Source: Halalkalicoccus sp. CGA53 (lineage in GTDB: Archaea; Halobacteriota; Halobacteria; Halobacteriales; Halalkalicoccaceae). From it: a DNA stretch of 64,000 bases. Below are positions 6,912 to 31,796 of the stretch, in pieces. Below the pieces are notes generated by a model. The model ran no database searches. It worked only from the letters and a program-made list of their open reading frames with translations, and was not told where the DNA came from. The position numbers were made by a program, and so were the translations under genes. Position 1 is the stretch's first letter, and each line of letters opens with the position of its first letter. The stretch is taken from the NCBI RefSeq assembly GCF_036429475.1, contig NZ_CP144125.1, positions 2,480,001-2,544,000 of the forward strand, given 5' to 3'.

Positions 6912-7715
6912 CTACTCGGTCGGGGAGTCGATTCTCCCCTCGAGATCGAGGTCGGCCGCGACCGCCGGGGTGAGGGTCGCGACCGAGTCGAGGAAGTTGA
7001 TCCGGTAGCTCGCCGGCCCGTTGTGCGGGAGCTCCGCCGCCCGCTCGCCCGCGATACCGTACGCGAGCGTCCCGCCGAGGCAGGCCTGGAGCGGGTCCTC
7101 GACGGCTCCGCAGAACGACGCGAGCGTGGCCCCGAGCATACAGCCCGTGCCGACCACCTCGCTCATCCGCTCGTGACCGGCGTGGACTCGGTACGTCCTC
7201 TCAGCGGTCGAGACGACGTCCTCGACCCCCGAGGCGACGACGACCGCGCCGGTCGCACCGGCGAGCTCTGCGGCGGTCTCCGCTATCGAGTCGTACTCGC
7301 CGACGGACTCGACGCCTTTCACCTCGCTCTCGACACCGGAGAGCGCGCTGATCTCGCCGTAGTTGCCCTTGATCGCGGCGAACTCGATCGACGCCAGGAG
7401 GCTCCCCGCGACCTCCGTTCGGGTGGGCGTCGCCCCCACCCCGACGGGGTCGAGGACGACCGGAACCCCCAGTTCGTTCGCCCGCTCGCCCGCGTTGTGG
7501 AGCGCCTCGACGTTGCTGTCGGTCATCCGCCCCGTGTTGAGCAGGATCGCCCCCGCGAGTTCGGCCATCTCCGGTGCCTCGCCCGGCGCGTCGGACATCA
7601 CCGGGAGCGCCCCCCACGAGAGGGTGACGTTCGCGAGGTCGTTCTTCGTCACCTCGTTCGTCAGCTGCTGGACCAGCGGCTCCCGCTCGCGGACCGCACG
7701 CAGCGCGTCAGCCAT
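6912..7715 (-). CDS. thiM: Hydroxyethylthiazole kinase
   Basis: A ribokinase-like enzyme of thiamine salvage that phosphorylates 4-methyl-5-(2-hydroxyethyl)thiazole. Diagnostic stretches are PLVQQLTNEVTKNDLAN at the N terminus, MTDSNVEAL, VLDPVGVGATPTR, and the anion-hole region VVGTGCMLGATLASF with the catalytic GTGC. The start at MADALRAV is preferred over one 22 codons upstream because family members begin just before the LVQ.LTN motif. The usual partner thiE is not adjacent. Confidence 0.9.
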   Translation of the reverse strand: MADALRAVREREPLVQQLTNEVTKNDLANVTLSWGALPVMSDAPGEAPEMAELAGAILLNTGRMTDSNVEALHNAGERANELGVPVVLDPVGVGATPTRTEVAGSLLASIEFAAIKGNYGEISALSGVESEVKGVESVGEYDSIAETAAELAGATGAVVVASGVEDVVSTAERTYRVHAGHERMSEVVGTGCMLGATLASFCGAVEDPLQACLGGTLAYGIAGERAAELPHNGPASYRINFLDSVATLTPAVAADLDLEGRIDSPTE

Positions 7716-7794
7716 CGACTCCCCCGAAAGCTCCCCGGACTCGGCGTGATTCACGCGAGATACCACCGACCGATCGGACAAAGCCGCTTCGATC

Positions 7795-8538
7795 TCAGCG
7801 CTCGTCGAGCGCGACCGGGACCGCCCTGCTCGCGACGTCCGCGGCGAAGCTCCCGGAGTCGGACTCGAGCGCCTCGAACGTGTTGTAGTGGATCGGGACG
7901 ACGAGGTCGGGATCGAGCTCCTCGGCGAGGTCCGCCGCGTCGTGGCGGTTCATCGTGAAGCTCTTTCCGATCGGCGGGACGAACAGCGAGACGTCGAGCG
8001 TCCTGTGGTCCTCGAGCGCGTCGGAGTCACCCGGCCAGAGCACCTGTTTCCCCCCGAGCGTGAACAGGAAGCCACAGCCGAACCCCTCCGGGTGCGGGAC
8101 GCTTCCGCTAGAATCGGCACGCGGACCGTCGGGATCGTTGTAGGCGGGTATCACCTCGACCTCGACCCCGTTCACCGTGAGTTCGTCGCCGTAGCCCACT
8201 CGCTCTACCTCGTACGGGAGCTCCTCCGGGGCTTCGACGTCCCGGCCGGTCCGCTCGGCGTCGACGTCCTCGTAGACGACGACCGTCGCGTCGTCGCCCG
8301 CGACCCGACGGACGCCGTCGGAGTCGTAGTGGTGATCGTGGGTGACGAGCACGACGTCGCCGTCTCTCGCCTCGTACTCGCGGACCGGCGGGTGGCCGAC
8401 GCCGGGCGTGTCGGGCTCCCACTCGCCGGTGAGCACGCCGTAGCGGCCGGGGTCGGTGTAGACGACGGTCTCCGAGGCGATCCGGGCGGTCGCGTAGCCG
8501 AGCCAGTCGACGGTGAGCTCGCCGTGTCGGACGGTCAT
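7795..8538 (-). CDS. MBL-fold metal-dependent hydrolase (UlaG-like)
   Basis: A 247-aa metallo-beta-lactamase-fold protein. Metal ligands are visible as VTHDHHYDSDG, GDSDA, and VPIHYNTF. The short length and the N-terminal WLGYATARI strand fit the UlaG-like branch, typically metal-dependent hydrolases of cyclic or phosphorylated metabolites. The substrate is unknown. It sits upstream of thiM on the same strand with a gap of about 80 nt and diverges from the YqeC-like gene. Confidence 0.8.
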   Translation of the reverse strand: MTVRHGELTVDWLGYATARIASETVVYTDPGRYGVLTGEWEPDTPGVGHPPVREYEARDGDVVLVTHDHHYDSDGVRRVAGDDATVVVYEDVDAERTGRDVEAPEELPYEVERVGYGDELTVNGVEVEVIPAYNDPDGPRADSSGSVPHPEGFGCGFLFTLGGKQVLWPGDSDALEDHRTLDVSLFVPPIGKSFTMNRHDAADLAEELDPDLVVPIHYNTFEALESDSGSFAADVASRAVPVALDER

Positions 8539-8613
8539 ACGTAGCTCTCACCTCAGAGGGTGAAAGAGCCTGTCGTTGCGGGCCTTTATGCCGTCGCCGG
8601 GGCCATCGGTGGT

Positions 8614-9348
8614 ATGCAGCTCTCTTCGGCGCTCGACGCCCGCGGCGTCGTCTGTGTGGTCGGCGCGGGCGGGAAGAAGTCGACGCTCTATCGCCTCGCC
8701 GGGGAACTCGACCGGGCGGTCGTCACCGCCACGGTGAGAATCCCGATCTTCGACGACGAGGTCTCGCGGGTGCTGGTCGAACCGGATCCCGTACAGGCGG
8801 CGGCGTCGCTCCGAGAAAACGCGCGCTGGCCGATCGGGGTCGTCTCCGAGCGCGAGCGCGAGGACAGGTATCTCGGGTACGACACCGGGGCAATCGCGAC
8901 GCTCGCCGACTCGCCCGCCGGAGCGGTGCTCGTTAAAGCCGACGGGGCGCGGATGCGGCTGTTCAAGGCGCCCGACGACCGCGAACCGCAGCTGCCGGAG
9001 AGCGCGGAGCTCGTCGTCCCCGTGGCGAGCGTCCGGGCGGTCGGTCAGCCGCTCACCGAGGAGGCCGTCCACCGACCCGAACGGGTCTCCGCGATCACCG
9101 GGCTGGAGATCGGCGATCGGATCGGTGCGGAGGACGTCGCCCGCACTCTCGCGAGCGACCGTGGCGGGACGAAGGACGTCCCCGAGGGTGCCCGAGTCGT
9201 CCCGATCGTGAACATGGTCGACGACTCGACGCTGGAGCGGACCGCTCGCGAGGTCGCAAACGAGGTGCTCTCGGGGTCCGCAATCGACCGGGTCGTCCTC
9301 ACCCGGCTGATCGACGAGGACCCCGTCATCGCCGTAGTCGAGCGGTGA
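8614..9348 (+). CDS. YqeC-like protein (putative molybdenum/selenium hydroxylase accessory)
   Basis: The 244-aa protein opens with a P-loop-like VVGAGGKKSTLYRLAGEL. It continues through VLVKADGARMRLFKAP and VPIVNMVD, the pattern of the YqeC family, annotated as accessory to selenium-dependent molybdenum hydroxylases. The start at MQLSSALDARG is chosen because the upstream in-frame extension is poorly conserved-looking. No molybdenum hydroxylase is nearby, although a small molybdopterin-fold-like protein is encoded about 2 kb upstream. Confidence 0.7.
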   Translation: MQLSSALDARGVVCVVGAGGKKSTLYRLAGELDRAVVTATVRIPIFDDEVSRVLVEPDPVQAAASLRENARWPIGVVSEREREDRYLGYDTGAIATLADSPAGAVLVKADGARMRLFKAPDDREPQLPESAELVVPVASVRAVGQPLTEEAVHRPERVSAITGLEIGDRIGAEDVARTLASDRGGTKDVPEGARVVPIVNMVDDSTLERTAREVANEVLSGSAIDRVVLTRLIDEDPVIAVVER

Positions 9349-9355
9349 GCGGTGG

Positions 9356-9529
9356 TCACTCGACGTCGAGGACGACGACGTCCCACTTCCCCTCGCCCTC
9401 CTTTCGTGGCTCCCAGCCCCCGGTGACGGTGACGCCACTGTCGGTCGCCGACCGGAGCAGGTCGGCCAGCGCCAGCTCGAACGCCTCCTCGGTGTCGATC
9501 GGTCCCTCGACCGTGTGTCGGGATGCCAT
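9356..9529 (-). CDS. Small conserved-looking protein (57 aa)
   Basis: Reads MASRHTVEGPIDTEEAFELA through KWDVVVLDVE. It is acidic, with GC-rich third positions typical of real haloarchaeal genes. The stop lies 7 nt past the stop of the convergent YqeC-like gene, so the two genes abut tail to tail. The N-terminal half is helical and the C terminus is a beta hairpin (GGWEPRKEGEGKWDVVVLDVE). No function is recognised. Confidence 0.6.
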   Translation of the reverse strand: MASRHTVEGPIDTEEAFELALADLLRSATDSGVTVTGGWEPRKEGEGKWDVVVLDVE

Positions 9530-9722
9530 CGGGGTCGATTGTTTCTTCTACACCACCACACGTATCAAATTTCCGGCTTGCTGTCGGAACGGGTATACGA
9601 TGCCGGTGCAGTGCCAGTATGATTATATGTTCTACCGACGACGTTCCGCACAGATCGAACATGGCTCATCATGCCACCTCCCTTTGTCCTCCCCCGCGAA
9701 ACAGCCCCACCGACCCAGAGAC

Positions 9723-10391
9723 ATGACGGTGCTGATGGAGTTCCGTATCCACCCTGATGCGTTCGAGTTGGGACGGGTGTTGTCCGCGATCGGAGAGGAC
9801 GTGACGATCGAGTTCGAGTCGCTCGTCCCGACCGGGGAGTCCCCGATCCCCTTCCTCTGGGTCCACGAGGACGGCGACGAGGAGACCGAGCGACGGATCG
9901 CCGCGCACCCGACCGTCGGGGCCTTCGACCGGGTCGAGCACGTAGAGGGTCGGACGCTCTACGCGTTCGAGTGGAACACCGAGTACGACCACCTCGTCCG
10001 GGCGATCCGTGACGCCGCCGCCCAGCTCCTCTCGGGGGTCAGGGTCGCGAGCGGGTGGCGGTTCACCCTCCGGTTTCCCTCCCACAGCGCCCTCTCGTCG
10101 TTCCGCGAGGAGAGCCAGCACGCCTCCCTCGACATCGACGTGATCCGCGTCTACAACGCCGGTCGGGCCGAGAGCGACCCGCTGTTCGGTCTGACCGATC
10201 CGCAGCGCGAAGCGCTCGTGCTCGCGGTCTCGGAGGGCTACTACGACATCCCCCGTGGCTGTACGACGGTCGAACTCGGCGAGCGCCTCGGCATCTCCGA
10301 TCAGGCGGTGACCGAACGCCTCAGACGGGCGATCGGCACGCTCGTCACGAACACCCTCGTCACGGACGACCACGAGGAGGCGCTCGACTGA
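9723..10391 (+). CDS. Bacterio-opsin-activator-type HTH regulator (HTH_10)
   Basis: The 222-aa protein begins MTVLMEFRIHPDAFELGRVL, the usual opening of haloarchaeal HTH_10 regulators. The C-terminal 60 residues carry the domain: LTDPQREALVLAVSEGYYDIPRG, then LGERLGISDQAVTERLRRAI, the recognition helix region. The N-terminal half is the sensor-like domain typical of the family and has no PAS or GAF motif. It is a transcription factor with an unknown target. The in-frame extension upstream of this ATG is not gene-like. Confidence 0.85.
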   Translation: MTVLMEFRIHPDAFELGRVLSAIGEDVTIEFESLVPTGESPIPFLWVHEDGDEETERRIAAHPTVGAFDRVEHVEGRTLYAFEWNTEYDHLVRAIRDAAAQLLSGVRVASGWRFTLRFPSHSALSSFREESQHASLDIDVIRVYNAGRAESDPLFGLTDPQREALVLAVSEGYYDIPRGCTTVELGERLGISDQAVTERLRRAIGTLVTNTLVTDDHEEALD

Positions 10392-10450
10392 ACCGTCCCG
10401 GAGAACCGGTTCCCCGGCGATAAAACTTGGTAGGCGAGGCCACTAATTGA

Positions 10451-10458
10451 TTTATTTA
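10451..10458 (+). promoter_or_regulatory. TATA box of the winged-helix gene
   Basis: TTTATTTA lies 20-27 nt before the ATG at 10478 in an AT-rich dip within otherwise GC-rich sequence. The spacing implies a leaderless transcript. Confidence 0.6.
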
Positions 10459-10477
10459 CAGGTTACATTAGCAACCG

Positions 10478-10909
10478 ATGTTCGAGCAATTTTTCCGGGA
10501 CTCCTCTCCCGGTGGGCTGTGGCGTCGACTCACCTCGTTCGTCCCAGGGGGACGGGAGGAACTAGACGAGGAACCGGACGACGCTGCGGAGACGTCGGTC
10601 GATCGGGTCGACGGAGCGGGGGCGGTGGACGGCCCCGAGGAGGAACTCGGCGACCTGCTGACGACGAACGAGGGCGAGGTGCTCGAGGTGCTCTCGGAGC
10701 ACGGGGGCGTGATGCGCCAGGGGCGGATCGTCGAGGAGACCGGGTGGTCGGCCTCGAAGGTCTCCTACACGCTCACGAGCCTGGCGGAGGGAGGACGGAT
10801 CGAGAAGCTACGGATCGGTCGCGAGAACGTCATCAGACACGACGGGGTCGACCACCCCATCTTCGACGCGTACACTGATACGGCCCGGGCACGAGAACCC
10901 GGTCGATGA
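10478..10909 (+). CDS. Winged-helix transcriptional regulator
   Basis: The 143-aa protein has an acidic, disordered segment (residues about 20-60) followed by a wHTH of the MarR/IclR kind: LLTTNEGEVLEVLSEHGGVM, then QGRIVEETGWSASKVSYTLTSL as helices 2-3, and the wing at GGRIEKLRIGRENVI. This arrangement is common in short haloarchaeal regulators. The stop overlaps the start of the GCS2-like gene (ATGA at 10906), so the two are probably co-expressed. Confidence 0.8.
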   Translation: MFEQFFRDSSPGGLWRRLTSFVPGGREELDEEPDDAAETSVDRVDGAGAVDGPEEELGDLLTTNEGEVLEVLSEHGGVMRQGRIVEETGWSASKVSYTLTSLAEGGRIEKLRIGRENVIRHDGVDHPIFDAYTDTARAREPGR

Positions 10910-12420
10910 CCGAATCAGAGGTCGCGACCGCGGTCCGCGAGGTGCTCTCGACCGACGCGGACCGGTTTCGCGAGCGTGCGCTCTCGGACGCAGCGGTGCT
11001 CACCGACGAGATCGCGGCCGGGACGTTCGACAACCCGCAGGCGATCGTCGGCTTCGAGTACGAGTTCTACGCGGCCGACGACGAAACCGACGCGCTCCGA
11101 CGGGTCCCCAGACGCCTCCTCAGGTACATCGGCTTCGAGAAGGAGCTCGGGCTTCACAACGCGGAGATGACGACCAGCCCCCAGCCGCTGAACCCCTACG
11201 GGCTGCGCGCACAGGAGATGGAGATCCGCGCCCGGCTCTCGGCGGCGCTCAAGTGTACGAGAGCGGAGGGGATCCACCTCGCGAGCGACGGCATCTGGAC
11301 GATCCCGCCGACCGGCGAGACCACCCGCGAGTACCTGCTGGACAGCGTCGACGACGACGGCATCCGGATCGCGACGAACATGAGCGACAGCGCGCGGTAT
11401 CATGCCATGGCGAACGCGGAAAGCTCCGACGCGGCCATGACGCTGCGCGCACCGCACGTCACGCTCGAGGCCGACACCGTCATGCCCGAGAGCCTGATCA
11501 CCTCCATCCAGCCCCACTACCAGGTCGCACAGGCGACGGCGCTGCCGATCTACTTCAACTACGCGCTCAGGGTGGCCGGACCGCTGGTCGCGCTCGGGGT
11601 GAACTCCCCCTTCTTCCCGCCGGACCTTTACGACGACGTCCCCGCCGAGACGATCATCGAGGAGGCCTGGATGGGCAACCGGATACCGGTCTTCGAGACC
11701 GTGCTCAACCCCCCGACGGGCGAGGGGAAGGTCCGCTTTCCGCGCGACCTCTCGACGGTCGAGGAGGCGGTCGACCGGATCGTCACCGACGACGCGGTCG
11801 TTCCGATGCCGATCTCCGAGACGGGCCGCTTCGACGACTCCTTCGCGACGTTCAGGCGGAAACACGGCACCTACTGGCGCTGGGTGCGCCCGGTGTTCGA
11901 CGGTGCGACCCGCTCGGCGGCGAACGCCCGCATCGAGTTCAGGCCGATCGCCGCACAGCCCACCGTCCGGGACTCGGTCGCCTTTCTCGCCTGCTTCGCG
12001 GGGCTCTTGGAGAGCCTCCCGAACGCCGACCACCCGGTCGGCGACCTCGAGTGGGAGGACGCGCGGGGGAACTTCGAGTCGGCCGTTCGCGACGGCCTGG
12101 GCGCGACGATCCGGTGGATCACGGCCGACGGTGAGGAGACGACGAGTACCGAAGAGCTCTACGCGGACCTCTTCGTCCACGCCGAGGACGGGCTCGTTCG
12201 GCGGGGGCTCTCGGAGGCCGACGCCGCGAGGTATCTCGGCCCGCTCCGGCGGCGCGTGAAGGACGGCCGCTCGCCGGCGGAGTGGAAACGCGACCGGGTG
12301 AGCGCGCGCGTGGCAAGCGGCGAGGAGTTCGCCGCCGCGGTCACCGGGATGCAGGGGGAGTATCTCGAGAAACAGCGGGCGACCCTCGTCGAGGGCAGTT
12401 TTGCCGACTGGCTGGAGTAG
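10906..12420 (+). CDS. Glutamate-cysteine ligase-like protein (GCS2 superfamily)
   Basis: A 504-aa protein. GVR-type GCS2 features include VGFEYEFYAADDETD near residue 45 (acidic metal-binding strand), FEKELGLHNAEMTTSPQPLN, a HYQVAQATALPIYFNYAL helix, and RIEFRPIAAQPTVRDSVAF. GCS2 enzymes ligate glutamate to cysteine or another amine using ATP. Haloarchaea use gamma-glutamylcysteine as a major thiol, but this protein is longer than typical YbdK-like ligases and its substrate is unproven. It is coupled to the upstream regulator and converges with psmB, which ends 1 nt after it. Confidence 0.65.
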   Translation: MTESEVATAVREVLSTDADRFRERALSDAAVLTDEIAAGTFDNPQAIVGFEYEFYAADDETDALRRVPRRLLRYIGFEKELGLHNAEMTTSPQPLNPYGLRAQEMEIRARLSAALKCTRAEGIHLASDGIWTIPPTGETTREYLLDSVDDDGIRIATNMSDSARYHAMANAESSDAAMTLRAPHVTLEADTVMPESLITSIQPHYQVAQATALPIYFNYALRVAGPLVALGVNSPFFPPDLYDDVPAETIIEEAWMGNRIPVFETVLNPPTGEGKVRFPRDLSTVEEAVDRIVTDDAVVPMPISETGRFDDSFATFRRKHGTYWRWVRPVFDGATRSAANARIEFRPIAAQPTVRDSVAFLACFAGLLESLPNADHPVGDLEWEDARGNFESAVRDGLGATIRWITADGEETTSTEELYADLFVHAEDGLVRRGLSEADAARYLGPLRRRVKDGRSPAEWKRDRVSARVASGEEFAAAVTGMQGEYLEKQRATLVEGSFADWLE

Positions 12421-25891: not shown

Positions 25892-26120
25892 ACCGACCAC
25901 GAGAACCCGAGAGATCCGACCCCGATAGCGGGATCGGAGAGCGGATCGGTCGAGCTGACGATCGTTCAGCGAGACGAAAAGGAGATACGGGTCCGGACGA
26001 ACCCGTCTGCTGCTCGGGGAACCAGTGGCGTTCGGCACGAGTCCCACGGAGTCCCACGAGCGTTCGTATCCATCGACCGGTCGCAACCATGATATACCGC
26101 GACCGATAGTACGATCCGTG

Positions 26121-26444
26121 ATGTACCGACGGAGATACCTTCTCGGGATAGCAGCGACGGCGGCGCTCGCCGGCTGTAGCGACGACGAGCCCGACGGACC
26201 GGACGACGACCCGGAGGACCCCGACGACGGGGACGCCCCCACGGACGACGAGGACGACGCGCTCGACGACGGTGAGGATGCCGTCGACGACGCCGAGGAG
26301 GTCGACGACGACCCCGAAGAAGTCGAGGACGAGGAGACCGGCGAGGGGGAAGAAGAGGACGAGGACGAGGAACCCGCCCACGACGACCTCGAGGACGACG
26401 ACCCCGACGACGAGGAGGAAGAAGAGGAAGACGACACGTACTGA
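26121..26444 (+). CDS. Tat-type lipoprotein with extreme acidic tail
   Basis: The 107-aa protein starts MYRRRYLLGIAATAALAGCS, giving a twin-Arg signal with lipobox LAGC, so it is exported and lipid-anchored. The roughly 88 residues after the cysteine are almost entirely Asp, Glu, Pro and Gly, without a single Lys or Arg. No fold is expected; it may be a disordered surface polyanion. Its stop codon lies inside the left terminal repeat of the adjacent inverted-repeat element, so the original 3' end may have been altered by insertion. Confidence 0.6.
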   Translation: MYRRRYLLGIAATAALAGCSDDEPDGPDDDPEDPDDGDAPTDDEDDALDDGEDAVDDAEEVDDDPEEVEDEETGEGEEEDEDEEPAHDDLEDDDPDDEEEEEEDDTY

Positions 26445-27266: not shown

Positions 27267-28271
27267 ATGGCGGGACGTAGCTTCCTGTCGACGACGTCGG
27301 ACGGTGTCGCGCGACTGGTTGAGGGGGACGACTGGATCGTCGACGAACACCTCGGGGGAACCGACGTCTCCTCGCTGGCGACGGGGCCGGTCGGATCCGG
27401 TCTCGTCCTCGCGGGGACCGAGGGCAGCGGTGTCTTCCTGTCCCTGGACCGCGGTGGTGCCTGGGAGTTCCGTGGGCTTGACGGCGAGCACGTGATGGCC
27501 CTCGCGGTTACACCGAGCGATCCGAAGCGACTCTACGCGGGCGTCCGCCCGCCGGCCGTCTATCGATCCGACGACGGTGGTAACTCCTGGGTGGAATGTG
27601 CGTCGTTTCAGGAGGTCCGCGGGCGGCGCATCTGGCGCTCGCCGGCCTCGCCGCCGTTCACCGCCTACGTCAACGGGCTGGCGGTCTCGCCCGGCGATCC
27701 GGATCTCGTCGTCGCGGGCATCGAGTTCGGGGCCGTCGTCCGGAGCACCGACGGCGGCGAGACGTGGTCGAACCACCGGCGGAAGGCGATCCGGGACTGT
27801 CACGACCTGGTCTGGCACGCGACCGACGAGAGATGTGTCTACGAAGGCGGTGCCGGGGTTCCCCGTCGACCGGGTGCCCGGAGTACCGACGGCGGCGAGA
27901 CCTGGCGGAAGCCCGGCGGCGGGCTCGACCGCGGCTACGGCGTGGCGGTCGCGGCCGACCCCGGCGACCCGAACGTCTGGTACGTCTCGGCGTCGACCTC
28001 CCCGTTCGCCGCCGAGAGCGACGAAGACCCGAAGGCCGCCGTGTTCCGTCACGAGGGCGGCGACGCCTGGGAGAAACTCGACGCGTTTCCCGCCGACCGG
28101 ATGCCCTGGGCGCTCTGTACGGACCCCGGACTCCCGGATAACCTCTGGGCCGGACGGGCCGATGGCTCGATCGTCCACTCGGTGGACCGGGGGGAGAGCT
28201 GGCAAGCGCTCGAAGGGGCTCTCCCGGAGGTCGAGCCGGCGATGGTGATGCTCCCCCCGGAGCGAGTGTGA
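27267..28271 (+). CDS. BNR/Asp-box beta-propeller protein
   Basis: The 334-aa protein has five Asp-box motifs: SLDRGGAWEF, RSDDGGNSWVE, RSTDGGETWSN, RSTDGGETWRK and SVDRGESWQAL. These mark the beta hairpins of a propeller as in sialidases and Ycf48-like proteins. No signal peptide is present, so it is probably cytoplasmic. No sialidase catalytic residues were recognised, and the function is probably binding or scaffolding. It may be host or viral in origin; it lies next to the provirus remnant. Confidence 0.75.
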   Translation: MAGRSFLSTTSDGVARLVEGDDWIVDEHLGGTDVSSLATGPVGSGLVLAGTEGSGVFLSLDRGGAWEFRGLDGEHVMALAVTPSDPKRLYAGVRPPAVYRSDDGGNSWVECASFQEVRGRRIWRSPASPPFTAYVNGLAVSPGDPDLVVAGIEFGAVVRSTDGGETWSNHRRKAIRDCHDLVWHATDERCVYEGGAGVPRRPGARSTDGGETWRKPGGGLDRGYGVAVAADPGDPNVWYVSASTSPFAAESDEDPKAAVFRHEGGDAWEKLDAFPADRMPWALCTDPGLPDNLWAGRADGSIVHSVDRGESWQALEGALPEVEPAMVMLPPERV

Positions 28272-28636
28272 CGTCGGTACGTCTTCGACCTGGTTTGCAG
28301 TGTAGTAATATACGAGGTGCAGTCACTACTCTCTCTCTCTCTCTCGGGACTGCACACTCGAACCGCCCCAGCGAGGAAACACTCGAAGAATGAAGGAACC
28401 CTGGACGCAAGATTCGTGATCGTTATGCCCGGCATAGCTGCGGGTGTCGCGGGGCTCGCCGTATTTCTGTCCCTGCACGACGTCTGGACCTTCCCATCCG
28501 GTTCGTCGCCCCGATCGGCCTCCTCGTCGCCGTCCATCTTGTTATCGACGTAGTGGTACGTCCCGTAGAGCACGCCGAACGTCAGCGGGACGATCGCTCG
28601 GTACAGCCGCTCGTTGTCGAGTATGTCCTGTAACAT
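28049..28636 (-). CDS. Truncated provirus gene running into host DNA
   Basis: The N-terminal part is convincing: MLQDILDNERLYRAIVPLTF and GVLYGTYHYVDNKMDGDEEA, one membrane helix followed by an acidic segment. After about residue 50 the composition turns Ser/Arg/Thr-rich, crosses a (TC)n tract at about 28329-28343, and then reads antisense through the BNR gene to 28049. The authentic gene is probably only about 28480-28636 with its 3' end lost at the provirus boundary. It lies just downstream of the tail-spike gene. Confidence 0.4.
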   Translation of the reverse strand: MLQDILDNERLYRAIVPLTFGVLYGTYHYVDNKMDGDEEADRGDEPDGKVQTSCRDRNTASPATPAAMPGITITNLASRVPSFFECFLAGAVRVCSPERERESSDCTSYITTLQTRSKTYRRHTRSGGSITIAGSTSGRAPSSACQLSPRSTEWTIEPSARPAQRLSGSPGSVQSAQGIRSAGNASSFSQASPPS

Positions 28637-28648
28637 GGTTGTGGTCTT

Positions 28649-30499
28649 CTACCGCCAGCGCCCGATCGTCGGGGGAAGCGAGTGACCGACGTCGCCCATC
28701 ACCTGCGCGACGACGGTGAGATGGCGCTGGCTCTGTGCGGTCCAGCCGCCGCCGTGGACGTAGGTCTCCGAGAGGAGTGCCGGGACATTGATGTCGTGAC
28801 AGCGCGTCACGAGCATCCCTCGGTTACCCGCTCCACTCGGGGAGACGACGTTGCCCTCCGACCACGCTTCCCGACCGCTAAAGCCGTGATAGCTGTTCAC
28901 GGCCTCGCACGCCGAACGGGCGAGCCGGCGGGAGTTCCCGCGTCCGTTCGGGAAGATGTTGCGCGCCGGTCCGTCGAGATGCCACGAGGCGTGGAGGTCG
29001 AGCAGGACGTCCGGCGACTCGTCCTCAACGCACGCGAAGATGCCCCGAGAGACGTCGGTCCATCCCTCGTTGTCGAGTTCGCGACGGCTCGGATCGCCTC
29101 CGAACGCCCGGTTGAGATCGGCCCCACACCCGTCGCGCGTCTCTCGACGGTCGTTGCACGTCCACGCCGGGTTGAGGACAACGAGCGTGCCGTTCCGCGG
29201 AGTCCACTCCTCGTCGACCATCCGCTCGGCGGCCCTCGCGGCGGAGCGCTCGTTGCCGTGGATGTTCGCGACGACCATCGTCTTCGGCCCGGACTCGCCG
29301 GAGTCGAAGACGTAGACCTCGCCTTCGGCGTCGCTCCCGAGGTCCTCGTTGATCCGGTAGCTCTCCCTATCTCTCGACGGGCTCGAGCCGCTCGATCCGC
29401 CGCCGGAGCCCGAGGAACCAGAACCAGAACCAGAGTCACCGCCGGACGATCCAGAGCCCGAGGAGGACTCGCTAAAATTCCCGATCGACCCCCCGTCGAT
29501 CCGCCGACAGGTCGATGCCCGGACCGTGTTGTCACTCCCTCGATCCACGACCCGATCCCCGCTGTAGGGACGGAATGTGCATCGCTCGACGGACTGGTAT
29601 TGCCCGCCGAGAACGATCGCGTGGTCCGTGCCGTTACCGAGGTCGTAGAAGTAGCAGTCGGTTATTGACGAACCGAACGACCGATCGAGCCTGACCTCGG
29701 CGTCCACGTCGCAGGACTCGTTGTTGGCCTCGATGTAACAGCCCTTCACGTCGATCATGCCGGAGTTCGAGGCCGTCCCACAGAGTCCGTGCAACTCGCT
29801 GTGCTGGAGCGTCCCCTGATAAAAGTCGACCGAGAACCCGCCGTCGAGCAGCATCCCGTGACCGCCAGCGAAGTTGACGTCCATCTTCGAGAACCGCGTC
29901 GAGTGAGCGGCGTTGTTGTGCGTGCTCGCGAGGTGGATACCGTGTGAGCCGGTCGACTCGATCTTGAGACCGCGGTAGTCGTGCGTGTTGATCGCGCCAC
30001 TCCCGTCGGACTCGAGCAGCAGGCCGACGCCGTCCGTATCCCGGATCATCACGCGCTCCATCTCGCTGTAGCGCGCCCGCGAGACGAGGACGCCCGGGTC
30101 ACCGCCCCGGATCCGGAGGTTGTTGATCCCCGCCCCGAGCGGCCGGACGGCTCCGTAGCAGTGATCGAACACGGGGCCGCTCGTCCCGCGGGCGTCGATC
30201 GTGCTCGCGTATCCTTGCCCTCGGATGCCGATCGCTCTGTCGTCGATCTCGATGGGAAACGAGTCATTTCGTGCGGAGTAGGTCGGCAGGACCATGATCT
30301 CGCCGCCCGCACTCTCCGCGCAGGCGTCGTAGGCGTTCTCCAGGCTGTCGTAGTCGCCACCGTCGCCGACGGTCGTGTACGCCGACTCGCCGCCCTGCCC
30401 CGGAGGTCCGCCCCCGAAGTCTATCTCCCCGAGCACGTCGTCCACGCGCTCGACGATCAATGCCTCTAACGCTTCGTCGTTGATTGATATGTCTATCAT
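28649..30499 (-). CDS. Viral tail spike: beta-helix plus AstE/M14-like zinc peptidase
   Basis: In this 616-aa protein, residues 1-45 form a short coil ending in GGGPPGQGG, like virion-attachment segments. Residues about 50-360 read as a right-handed beta-helix (repeated short G-x-x-L/I units, e.g. GSHGIHLASTHNNAAHSTRF). Residues about 365-400 are a Gly/Ser linker. Residues about 405-616 form a zinc hydrolase with IHGNERSA (His, Glu ligands), ADLNRAFGG, LLDLHASWH (third ligand) and LLSETYVHGG (catalytic Glu), as in aspartoacylase/AstE and M14 enzymes. It may cleave an amide or peptide bond in the host envelope. Confidence 0.75.
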   Translation of the reverse strand: MIDISINDEALEALIVERVDDVLGEIDFGGGPPGQGGESAYTTVGDGGDYDSLENAYDACAESAGGEIMVLPTYSARNDSFPIEIDDRAIGIRGQGYASTIDARGTSGPVFDHCYGAVRPLGAGINNLRIRGGDPGVLVSRARYSEMERVMIRDTDGVGLLLESDGSGAINTHDYRGLKIESTGSHGIHLASTHNNAAHSTRFSKMDVNFAGGHGMLLDGGFSVDFYQGTLQHSELHGLCGTASNSGMIDVKGCYIEANNESCDVDAEVRLDRSFGSSITDCYFYDLGNGTDHAIVLGGQYQSVERCTFRPYSGDRVVDRGSDNTVRASTCRRIDGGSIGNFSESSSGSGSSGGDSGSGSGSSGSGGGSSGSSPSRDRESYRINEDLGSDAEGEVYVFDSGESGPKTMVVANIHGNERSAARAAERMVDEEWTPRNGTLVVLNPAWTCNDRRETRDGCGADLNRAFGGDPSRRELDNEGWTDVSRGIFACVEDESPDVLLDLHASWHLDGPARNIFPNGRGNSRRLARSACEAVNSYHGFSGREAWSEGNVVSPSGAGNRGMLVTRCHDINVPALLSETYVHGGGWTAQSQRHLTVVAQVMGDVGHSLPPTIGRWR

Positions 30500-30624
30500 G
30501 GTATGGAATACTGCATCAACCGGTCGGCGTGGCGTGTGGTGCTCGCCCCGGTGGCTCATCGCTACCGGTCTTTATTCCGGATCGTTAGAGGAGAACCAGC
30601 CGCTCACAACTTCTTCAGGATTGA

Positions 30625-30900
30625 TCAGTGCTTGAGCTCGGCTATCACTTCGAGGTTCTTCGCCTCGGTCCAGATCTCCAGCCCGTCCATCTGCCCCGAA
30701 TCGCCGTTTCTGATGTTCTCGGCGGTCATCCCCCGTTGCGAGCCCCCCTGTACGCGCGCTGAGAACCGGTTCGGCGACGCCCATCCCGTCCAACTCGTGT
30801 CACTGTAAAGGTTGAAGGAGTCGAACTCGACCGTCATAATGCACCCCTCCCGAACGTCGTCGGCGACGGGCCGATGCGGCTGGAGGTGCGGACCCGCCAT
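30625..30900 (-). CDS. Provirus small protein (91 aa)
   Basis: Begins MAGPHLQPHRPVADDVREGC. Its ATG overlaps the upstream stop (TAATG), so it is translated by coupling. An internal start at MTVEFDSFNLYSDTSW is possible. Aromatic and polar residues (DTSWTGWASPNRFSARVQGG) suggest a small beta-structured virion protein. It lies 125 nt before the tail-spike gene. Function unknown. Confidence 0.6.
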   Translation of the reverse strand: MAGPHLQPHRPVADDVREGCIMTVEFDSFNLYSDTSWTGWASPNRFSARVQGGSQRGMTAENIRNGDSGQMDGLEIWTEAKNLEVIAELKH

Positions 30901-31298
30901 TAACCCTGACCTCCCTCGCCGTCGACGAGCTCCCACGCTGGGACGAGGTCCTCGCGTTCCATCCGCTCGAGGGCGTCGTCGAGAACCTGATCGGTCGCCG
31001 GGACGTGTGGGTTGTCGGTCGGCCCCTTCTCCGCGGCGATCCGAGCGGAGACGACCAGCAGGTCCGGGTCGGTCGTCGTCGAGGGAGCAGCACCGAACAG
31101 TGCCGTGAGATCTCGGTCGACCGTCTGTGCCGTGTTCGACGGTCCGGCGATCTTCCGCTTCTCGACCTTCCGTCCGTCGTTGATCTCGTCGTAGTCGGCG
31201 ATGTGGCCGTCTCGATCGAGGTTCTGACGCCGGCGACCGAGCAGCGCTCCGACTCGTCGCTTCGTGACCTCAGCCTTCCGCTCGACTGTCTCAGACAT
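30900..31298 (-). CDS. Provirus hypothetical protein (132 aa)
   Basis: Begins MSETVERKAEVTKRRVGALL. A charged N terminus is followed by a helical region and SARIAAEKGPTDNPHVPATD, ending in WELVDGEGGQG. It could be a structural or assembly protein, but nothing diagnostic is seen. It overlaps the zinc-ribbon gene by 8 nt and the 91-aa gene by 1 nt. Confidence 0.6.
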   Translation of the reverse strand: MSETVERKAEVTKRRVGALLGRRRQNLDRDGHIADYDEINDGRKVEKRKIAGPSNTAQTVDRDLTALFGAAPSTTTDPDLLVVSARIAAEKGPTDNPHVPATDQVLDDALERMEREDLVPAWELVDGEGGQG

Positions 31299-31440
31299 CG
31301 TAGACCTCCTGGACTGGCGAGCGACGCCGGCACCGCGATCGCGAACACTTGAAGGCGGAGCCATCGCGATCGCCGGTCGAGAGGATCCGACCGCACGCGG
31401 GGCAGGTCGGGATCGTCCGCACGTAACGTTCGGCGCTCAC
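31291..31440 (-). CDS. Provirus zinc-ribbon mini-protein (49 aa)
   Basis: GTG start: VSAERYVRTIPTCPACGRIL, then FKCSRSRCRRRSPVQEVYDV. CPAC and CSRSRC form a four-cysteine zinc site, followed by a basic patch that could contact nucleic acid. The GTG overlaps the upstream stop (GTGA) and its own stop overlaps the next ATG (ATGTCTGA). This supports it being real despite its size. Confidence 0.6.
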   Translation of the reverse strand: MSAERYVRTIPTCPACGRILSTGDRDGSAFKCSRSRCRRRSPVQEVYDV

Positions 31441-31631
31441 GCCGACTCCTCCCGATCGGTGATCCGCTCGTAGGCGAGGACCTCCTCGCGTGCTTCGTGG
31501 AGGCGATCAGTCGCGAACGCGAGCGCACCCGCCGAAGCAGCGTTCTCCTCGGCGTCTCGGAGCTCCGCGTACTCCTCAACGAGCACGCCGAGAAGCAGGT
31601 CCGTGCGCTCGGCGGTGGAGATCGCCGTCAC
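31437..31631 (-). CDS. Provirus small helical protein (64 aa)
   Basis: GTG start: VTAISTAERTDLLLGVLVEE. Nearly all residues are predicted helical with heptad-like leucines and alanines (YAELRDAEENAASAGALAFA), so it is possibly a coiled coil. It is the first gene of the remnant, about 90 nt from the tRNA-Glu 3' end. Function unknown. Confidence 0.55.
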   Translation of the reverse strand: MTAISTAERTDLLLGVLVEEYAELRDAEENAASAGALAFATDRLHEAREEVLAYERITDREESA

Positions 31632-31721
31632 GCCGAGATCCCTCCCGTAGAGGGTCCGGAATCAGAACGCCAGGGTTGAGATTCTACACTTTTTACAGAA
31701 GAATGTGAACAAACGTAAGGA

Positions 31722-31796
31722 TGCTCGCTGGGGGATTTGAACCCCCGTCATCGGCTCGAAAGGCCGATATGATTGGCCGGGCTACACCAAGCGAGC
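31722..31796 (-). tRNA. tRNA-Glu (UUC)
   Basis: The 7-bp acceptor stem is GCTCGCT/AGCGAGC. The anticodon stem TCGGC/GCCGA closes loop CTTTCGA, giving anticodon TTC. The T arm GGGGG-TTCAAAT-CCCCC is perfect, and the discriminator is A at 31722. No CCA is encoded. Its 3' end faces the provirus remnant. Confidence 0.93.

Follow-up and report, generated by a model that had tools for sequence, protein, structure and literature searches.

The window (the whole stretch of DNA analysed, 64,000 nucleotides of the Halalkalicoccus sp. CGA53 genome, C2:2480001-2544000) contains a gene, here called the spike gene, that is predicted to join a right-handed beta-helix to a zinc amidohydrolase domain through a Gly/Ser-rich linker (Table 1). 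Its frame has two candidate starts: the upstream ATG gives a protein of 636 amino acids and an internal ATG at 30499 one of 616 amino acids. The preliminary description, made from the DNA alone, had placed the gene at 28649-30499; the frame was right, and the upstream ATG extends it to 30559. Sequence comparison confirms that beta-helix, linker and a complete zinc amidohydrolase domain lie in one undamaged open reading frame, as had been proposed from the HGNE, DLNR, DLHAS and SETY motifs, all of which are present and are accompanied by matches to Pfam families for both halves.

Table 1. Coordinates of the spike gene, its predicted domains and active-site residues, and the neighbouring features of the provirus remnant
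Feature	Coordinates	Strand	Basis
Spike gene	28649..30559	-	ORF; Pfam; 83% identical paralogue in complete provirus; dN/dS 0.31
N-terminal part, residues 1-135, with predicted helix 29-45	30155..30559	-	Near-identical to provirus copy
Right-handed beta-helix, residues ~136-349	29513..30154	-	PF13229; model strands pLDDT 65-85
Gly/Ser-rich linker, residues 350-397	29369..29512	-	Sequence; pLDDT < 50
Predicted zinc amidohydrolase domain, residues 398-636	28652..29368	-	PF24827; pLDDT 88; pTM 0.90; Csd4 Z 25.1
HGNE, residues 434-437 (H434 and E437, predicted zinc ligands)	29249..29260	-	64/64 rows
H523 of DLHAS (521-525), predicted third zinc ligand	28991..28993	-	63/64 rows
E598 of SETY (597-600), predicted general base/acid	28766..28768	-	62/64 rows
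5' part of post-spike gene (MLQDILDNERLYRAIVPLTFGVLYGTYHYVDNK...), truncated in window	28526..28648	-	Provirus DNA homology stops at 28526
240-bp foreign segment at deletion junction	30615..30855	-	Absent from complete provirus (blastn)
Left-end provirus genes: 64-aa ORF 31437-31631, zinc-finger-like ORF, ~132-aa ORF 30900-31299	30856..31651	-	
tRNA-Glu(ttc) bordering island	31722..31796	-	ARAGORN

Pfam places PF13229 (Beta_helix) at residues 198-349, where it exceeds the cut-off with E 2.3e-6, and PF24827 (AstE_AspA_cat) at residues 424-524 (E 2.1e-7; 31.1 bits versus a cut-off of 25); a second copy of the spike, in a complete provirus, matches PF24827 with 29.9 bits (gathering cut-off 25). 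The N-terminal part, which has low model confidence, is probably the trimerization region and, we infer, the region of attachment to the tail. The Gly/Ser-rich linker is of unequal length in the two copies. All catalytic residues are present (H434, E437, H523, E598, R475, N483, and R484), and H434, E437, H523, E598, N483, and R484 reproduce the PF24827 site pattern of HxxE plus a histidine, a catalytic glutamate, and an NR pair. In a catalytic-domain alignment of 64 rows from haloarchaea and bacteria, N483 of the DLNR motif (residues 481-484) is invariant and R484 is found in 62-63 rows. The family profile, in a search of PDB sequences, pairs the motif of H523 with “LHDGGG” of Csd4.

Structure prediction of the catalytic domain, which had been suggested as a check, returned a Csd4-type fold with a pLDDT of 88 and a pTM of 0.90 (AlphaFold, with the 64-row alignment supplied). 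Among solved structures Helicobacter pylori Csd4 is closest (Z 25.1; rmsd 2.6 A, 214 residues aligned); M14 carboxypeptidases come next (Z ~20) and DoeB/AspA-type deacylases after them (Z ~19). The profile search of PDB sequences ranked Csd4 together with DoeB-like enzymes, with the zinc-ligand motifs aligned, and phage M14 peptidases are among the BFVD matches. In the full-length model, beta-strands at residues 136-330 (pLDDT 65-85) are followed by a disordered linker (349-397) and a catalytic domain at ~90; the beta-helix is modeled with medium confidence, and the pTM of only 0.50 makes the relative placement of the domains meaningless.

In the profile comparison that the preliminary description had also proposed, PF24827 is reached, but the named NCBIfam equivalogs for aspartoacylase, succinylglutamate desuccinylase, and DoeB are not (at best 13 bits versus 180 for PRK02259), and neither PF17033 (Peptidase_M99) nor PF05908 (gamma-polyglutamate [PGA] hydrolase) matches the window spike in Pfam at an E value of ≤1. 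PF17033 is matched by cellular homologues and by a halovirus gene described below. The original assignment to an AstE/M14-like family is broadly correct (AstE/M99, M14 clan), but the nearest fold is of the Csd4 type (M14/M99) and not AspA/AstE proper.

A viral origin had also been claimed; the window by itself does not reveal it, but it is confirmed by a spike paralogue of 83% identity at C2:2069925-2071781 of the same genome, where it lies at the tail-module end of a complete provirus ~437 kb from the window locus on the same contig. This provirus encodes a large terminase, a portal, a head morphogenesis protein, a major head protein, a tail protein, and an integrase (at C2:2087702), and its TerL is 55-62% identical to those of HSTV-1, HRTV-28, and BJ1; judged by its genes, it is a head-tailed provirus with BJ1/HSTV-1-like packaging genes (Caudoviricetes). 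Its gene order (L038/L033) runs from tail-fibre-like genes to the spike and then to a holin-like gene, so that the spike ends the tail module. Among the features of a tailed-virus tail spike, the right-handed beta-helix is present, and location in a tail module is seen in the provirus copy, the module being deleted in the window. No signal peptide is visible in either spike, in contrast to the Tat signal of a cellular homologue. Immediately ahead of the provirus spike lies a gene of 363 amino acids (L033:6783-7871; G000:C2 ~2068782-2069870) with PHP-phosphoesterase-like motifs (DHHYHT, GMEQG, EHPSR, and FSHDDPH), a weak NCBIfam match to nucleoside bisphosphate phosphatase, and no Pfam or PHROG match; it could possibly be a second metalloenzyme of the tail module.

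By DNA homology, window positions 31651-30856 correspond to the complete provirus at its left end (87% identity with L038:2117-3031) and 30614-28526 to its spike region. On this comparison the island in the window, which adjoins tRNA-Glu, arose by deletion from a BJ1/HSTV-1-like provirus and has lost ~25 kb. The post-spike gene, truncated in the window, is holin-like in the complete provirus, where its full version has 202 amino acids (L033:9798-10406). The tRNA-Glu(ttc) gene is possibly the former integration site; no convincing att repeats were found at the ends of the island or of the complete provirus. The window copy of the spike may not be expressed in the deleted provirus. Adjoining the remnant, positions 27267-28271 encode a BNR/sortilin-like repeat protein (NF045728-like, below cut-off). 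Positions 26025-26444 of the window encode an Asp/Glu-rich lipoprotein with a long acidic low-complexity repeat, similar to one at L034:1871-2359.

The two spike copies have diverged unevenly. There are no synonymous changes in residues 1-57, and dS rises to 0.7-1.1 toward the C terminus; dN/dS, 0.31 overall, is 0.28 for the catalytic domain and falls to ~0.18 over most of the helix. The values for the catalytic domain and helix show purifying selection on the C-terminal half. Together with the second full-length copy of matching architecture, the overall and catalytic values indicate that the single intact gene is more than chance. With a near-identical N terminus and a diverged C terminus, the two copies form a mosaic pair of the kind that host-range change would produce in a receptor-binding protein, and the N-terminal part has presumably been exchanged recently.

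At the level of sequence, the fusion of beta-helix and AstE domain is rare: it is found in the two spikes and in a cellular Tat-secreted homologue of three congeneric genomes. The homologue, with both domains in 713-733 amino acids, has a Tat signal and no viral neighbours and occurs in the host and in two congeneric metagenome-assembled genomes (MAGs); the pair of domains is therefore not exclusively viral. At L034, the gene for the cellular fusion (8854-10992) is divergent from one for a Tat-secreted polysaccharide-deacetylase-like protein (7457-8740), an arrangement conserved in the MAG locus L036. The preliminary description had held that separate genes in relatives would speak against the fusion. 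The outcome is divided: in other haloarchaea the halves are indeed separate secreted proteins, the helix in Tat proteins that lack the enzyme (L040-L044) and the AstE/M99 domain in Tat-secreted enzymes that are widespread, but they are fused in the cellular Tat protein. The helix homologues of other haloarchaea lack an AstE domain, and no tail genes adjoin them. A class-wide profile search, in which two candidates per genome were scored, gave no fusion, which at that depth is not proof of absence. In a tree, the spikes, the cellular fusions, and Tat-secreted enzymes with extra C-terminal sequence form one clade of 14 rows (99/96). The spike domain may derive from the cellular fusion, with which it shares this clade, but the spikes sit on a long branch and the tree gives no direct sister relation. 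At a contig end of a congeneric MAG (L024; G008:C444) lies an AstE domain of the spike type that has decayed and contains a stop, which suggests another provirus remnant.

Screening viral genomes for the same fusion, as had been recommended, recovered none in phage records or IMG/VR. The whole protein, helix, and catalytic domain had no relevant match by tblastn among 50,697 phage records (a Staphylococcus phage at E 0.5 was disregarded), and IMG/VR searches for the fusion or the catalytic domain returned no second viral fusion and one viral AstE/M99 gene. This gene, on L069 (IMGVR_UViG_3300007038_000001; 7995-8630), is free-standing, encodes 211 amino acids, and sits downstream of baseplate-J and tail-fibre genes in an unrelated halovirus. 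As an IMG/VR query it found only itself, and the tail protein of the complete provirus found nothing there.

The baseplate-type protein of the provirus led to related tail modules in six other haloarchaeal genomes. The distal tail of one provirus (G234) has a PF05908 gamma-PGA hydrolase (E 2e-14) and a PF01522 polysaccharide deacetylase-domain protein (E 1e-12), encoded by adjacent genes (L169:6137-7027 and 7034-8524), and its host has two capC loci (PGA synthesis). Another (G377) has a deacetylase-like domain that barely exceeds the cut-off, and others have beta-helix proteins without AstE in this region. With one case each, swapping of enzymes at the distal tail to match the host polymer is only suggested. 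Haloarcula viruses HCTV-1 and HCTV-16 encode an annotated PGA hydrolase, and the turrets of HFTV1 bear a deacetylase-like domain proposed to modify host surface glycans (PMC12494034). Deacylase or amidase enzymes of haloarchaeal viruses therefore have precedents, in HFTV1, in HCTV-1/HCTV-16, and in the NodB-type deacetylase and PGA hydrolase of related proviruses. The functional role suggested in the preliminary description is plausible and has gained support from the present comparisons.

We consider it reasonably probable that the spike is an adsorption protein of a temperate tailed virus whose Csd4/AstE-type domain cuts an amide bond of a host surface polymer. The N-terminal region would fix the spike to the tail, the beta-helix would form the shaft, and the zinc amidohydrolase, at the end of the flexible linker, would act on the polymer; in the simplest case it would remove N-acyl groups from an aminosugar glycan or release an amino acid or peptide that is attached through an amide bond. 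Zinc would be bound by H434, E437, and H523, water would be activated by E598, and R475 with N483/R484 would hold a substrate carboxylate or the oxyanion. The surface layer might thereby be thinned or remodelled during adsorption, as proposed for the deacetylase-like turrets of HFTV1. We infer the presence of the spike in the virion, its trimeric state, its activity, and its substrate.

A narrower and overlapping version of this proposal, which we regard as rather doubtful, is that the domain does not N-deacylate glycans but works as a peptidase in the strict sense (carboxypeptidase or isopeptidase), trimming the S-layer protein or else a peptide or amino-acid cross-link of a rigid wall. It would agree with the structural ranking of Csd4 and the M14 carboxypeptidases ahead of the DoeB/AspA-type enzymes, with the placing of Csd4 alongside DoeB-like enzymes in the PDB profile search, with the PF17033 matches of the cellular homologues, and with the phage M14 peptidases found in BFVD. 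However, Csd4, DoeB, AstE, and carboxypeptidase A share the fold, so that the choice between glycan N-acyl and peptide or isopeptide substrates cannot be read from it, and what related proviruses carry in its place in the distal tail region are deacetylases and a gamma-PGA hydrolase. The latter, with capC in its host, and the likeness to carboxypeptidases that their authors saw in PghP and PghL, zinc enzymes of phage origin (PMC6506827), might point to gamma-PGA hydrolysis on a PGA capsule. For the spike this is very improbable: it has no PF05908 match, and capC (PF14102) was not found in the window genome or its two incomplete congeneric MAGs, which argues against gamma-PGA as the substrate.

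Where the enzyme acts, and whether the window copy still acts, are separate matters. The Tat-secreted two-domain protein conserved in three genomes of the genus invites the view that both spikes are host-surface enzymes expressed from proviruses (in lysogenic conversion or superinfection exclusion) and not virion parts, but this is unlikely given that neither has a visible signal peptide and that the provirus copy is embedded in the late tail module, with tail-fibre-like genes on one side and a holin-like gene on the other. Opinion is evenly balanced on whether the window copy is a relic with no present function, simply the last gene to stay well preserved while its provirus decays; such a relic would be compatible with an adsorption spike. 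The missing ~25 kb, the truncated post-spike gene, the foreign sequence at the junction, and the decayed spike-type domain with stops in a congeneric MAG all favor a relic; the full-length frame, the complete set of catalytic residues, and the low dN/dS of the catalytic domain (0.28) and most of the helix (~0.18) do not, although selection in the viral ancestors of the remnant, prior to the deletion, also contributes to these values.

The adsorption-spike proposal bears on the passage of tailed viruses through the archaeal surface, where peptidoglycan is absent. A spike with an M14-clan amidohydrolase would imply that an amide bond in some polymer of the host surface is important for infection. 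The presence of other deacylases and a PGA hydrolase at the corresponding proviral position makes the question testable, since the viral enzyme would read out the host polymer, and the wide occurrence of the catalytic family as Tat-secreted haloarchaeal enzymes means that the spike substrate would inform cell biology too. We postulate, very tentatively, that haloarchaeal tailed viruses swap amide-cutting enzymes (AstE/M99, gamma-PGA hydrolase, and NodB-type deacetylase) at the distal tail according to host polymer. The AstE/M99 spike would then be the first viral tool known, and a probe, for a so far uncharacterised surface polymer with amide linkages in the Halalkalicoccus family, one that is also the target of homologous enzymes secreted by haloarchaea themselves.

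Among known enzymes, the D,L-carboxypeptidase Csd4 (M14/M99, PF17033) resembles the spike domain in its whole catalytic fold, active-site order, and amide hydrolysis, but the two are 14% identical, Csd4 has extra domains and trims peptidoglycan, which archaea lack, and the spike domain is carried on a viral beta-helix. The AspA/AstE/DoeB deacylases (PF24827) share the above-cut-off Pfam match and the zinc-site motifs but are intracellular metabolic enzymes, whose equivalog cut-offs the spike does not reach and whose fold match is weaker than that of Csd4. The cellular Tat fusion (L034, L036/L072, and L037/L071) has the same domains in the same order, with a catalytic domain 41-44% identical, and differs in its Tat signal, the lack of virus neighbours, and chromosomal conservation. 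Among viral systems, the HFTV1 turret head protein carries a zinc deacylase-like domain on the particle of a tailed virus of haloarchaea and is proposed to modify host surface glycans, much as is predicted for the spike; it has a polysaccharide-deacetylase fold on capsid turrets and not an AstE/M99 domain on a beta-helix. PghP and PghL (PF05908) are also virus-encoded zinc amidohydrolases and remove a surface polymer, as is predicted for the spike, but they belong to another family, act on gamma-PGA, and showed no beta-helix fusion here.

Enzymatic tail spikes are already known. In phage tailspikes the activity usually resides in the helix (lyase or hydrolase) or in an esterase or deacetylase domain. 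Tailspike depolymerases and deacetylases share with the spike a beta-helix shaft and an enzymatic function, whereas the spike has a predicted M14-clan amidohydrolase on a flexible linker.
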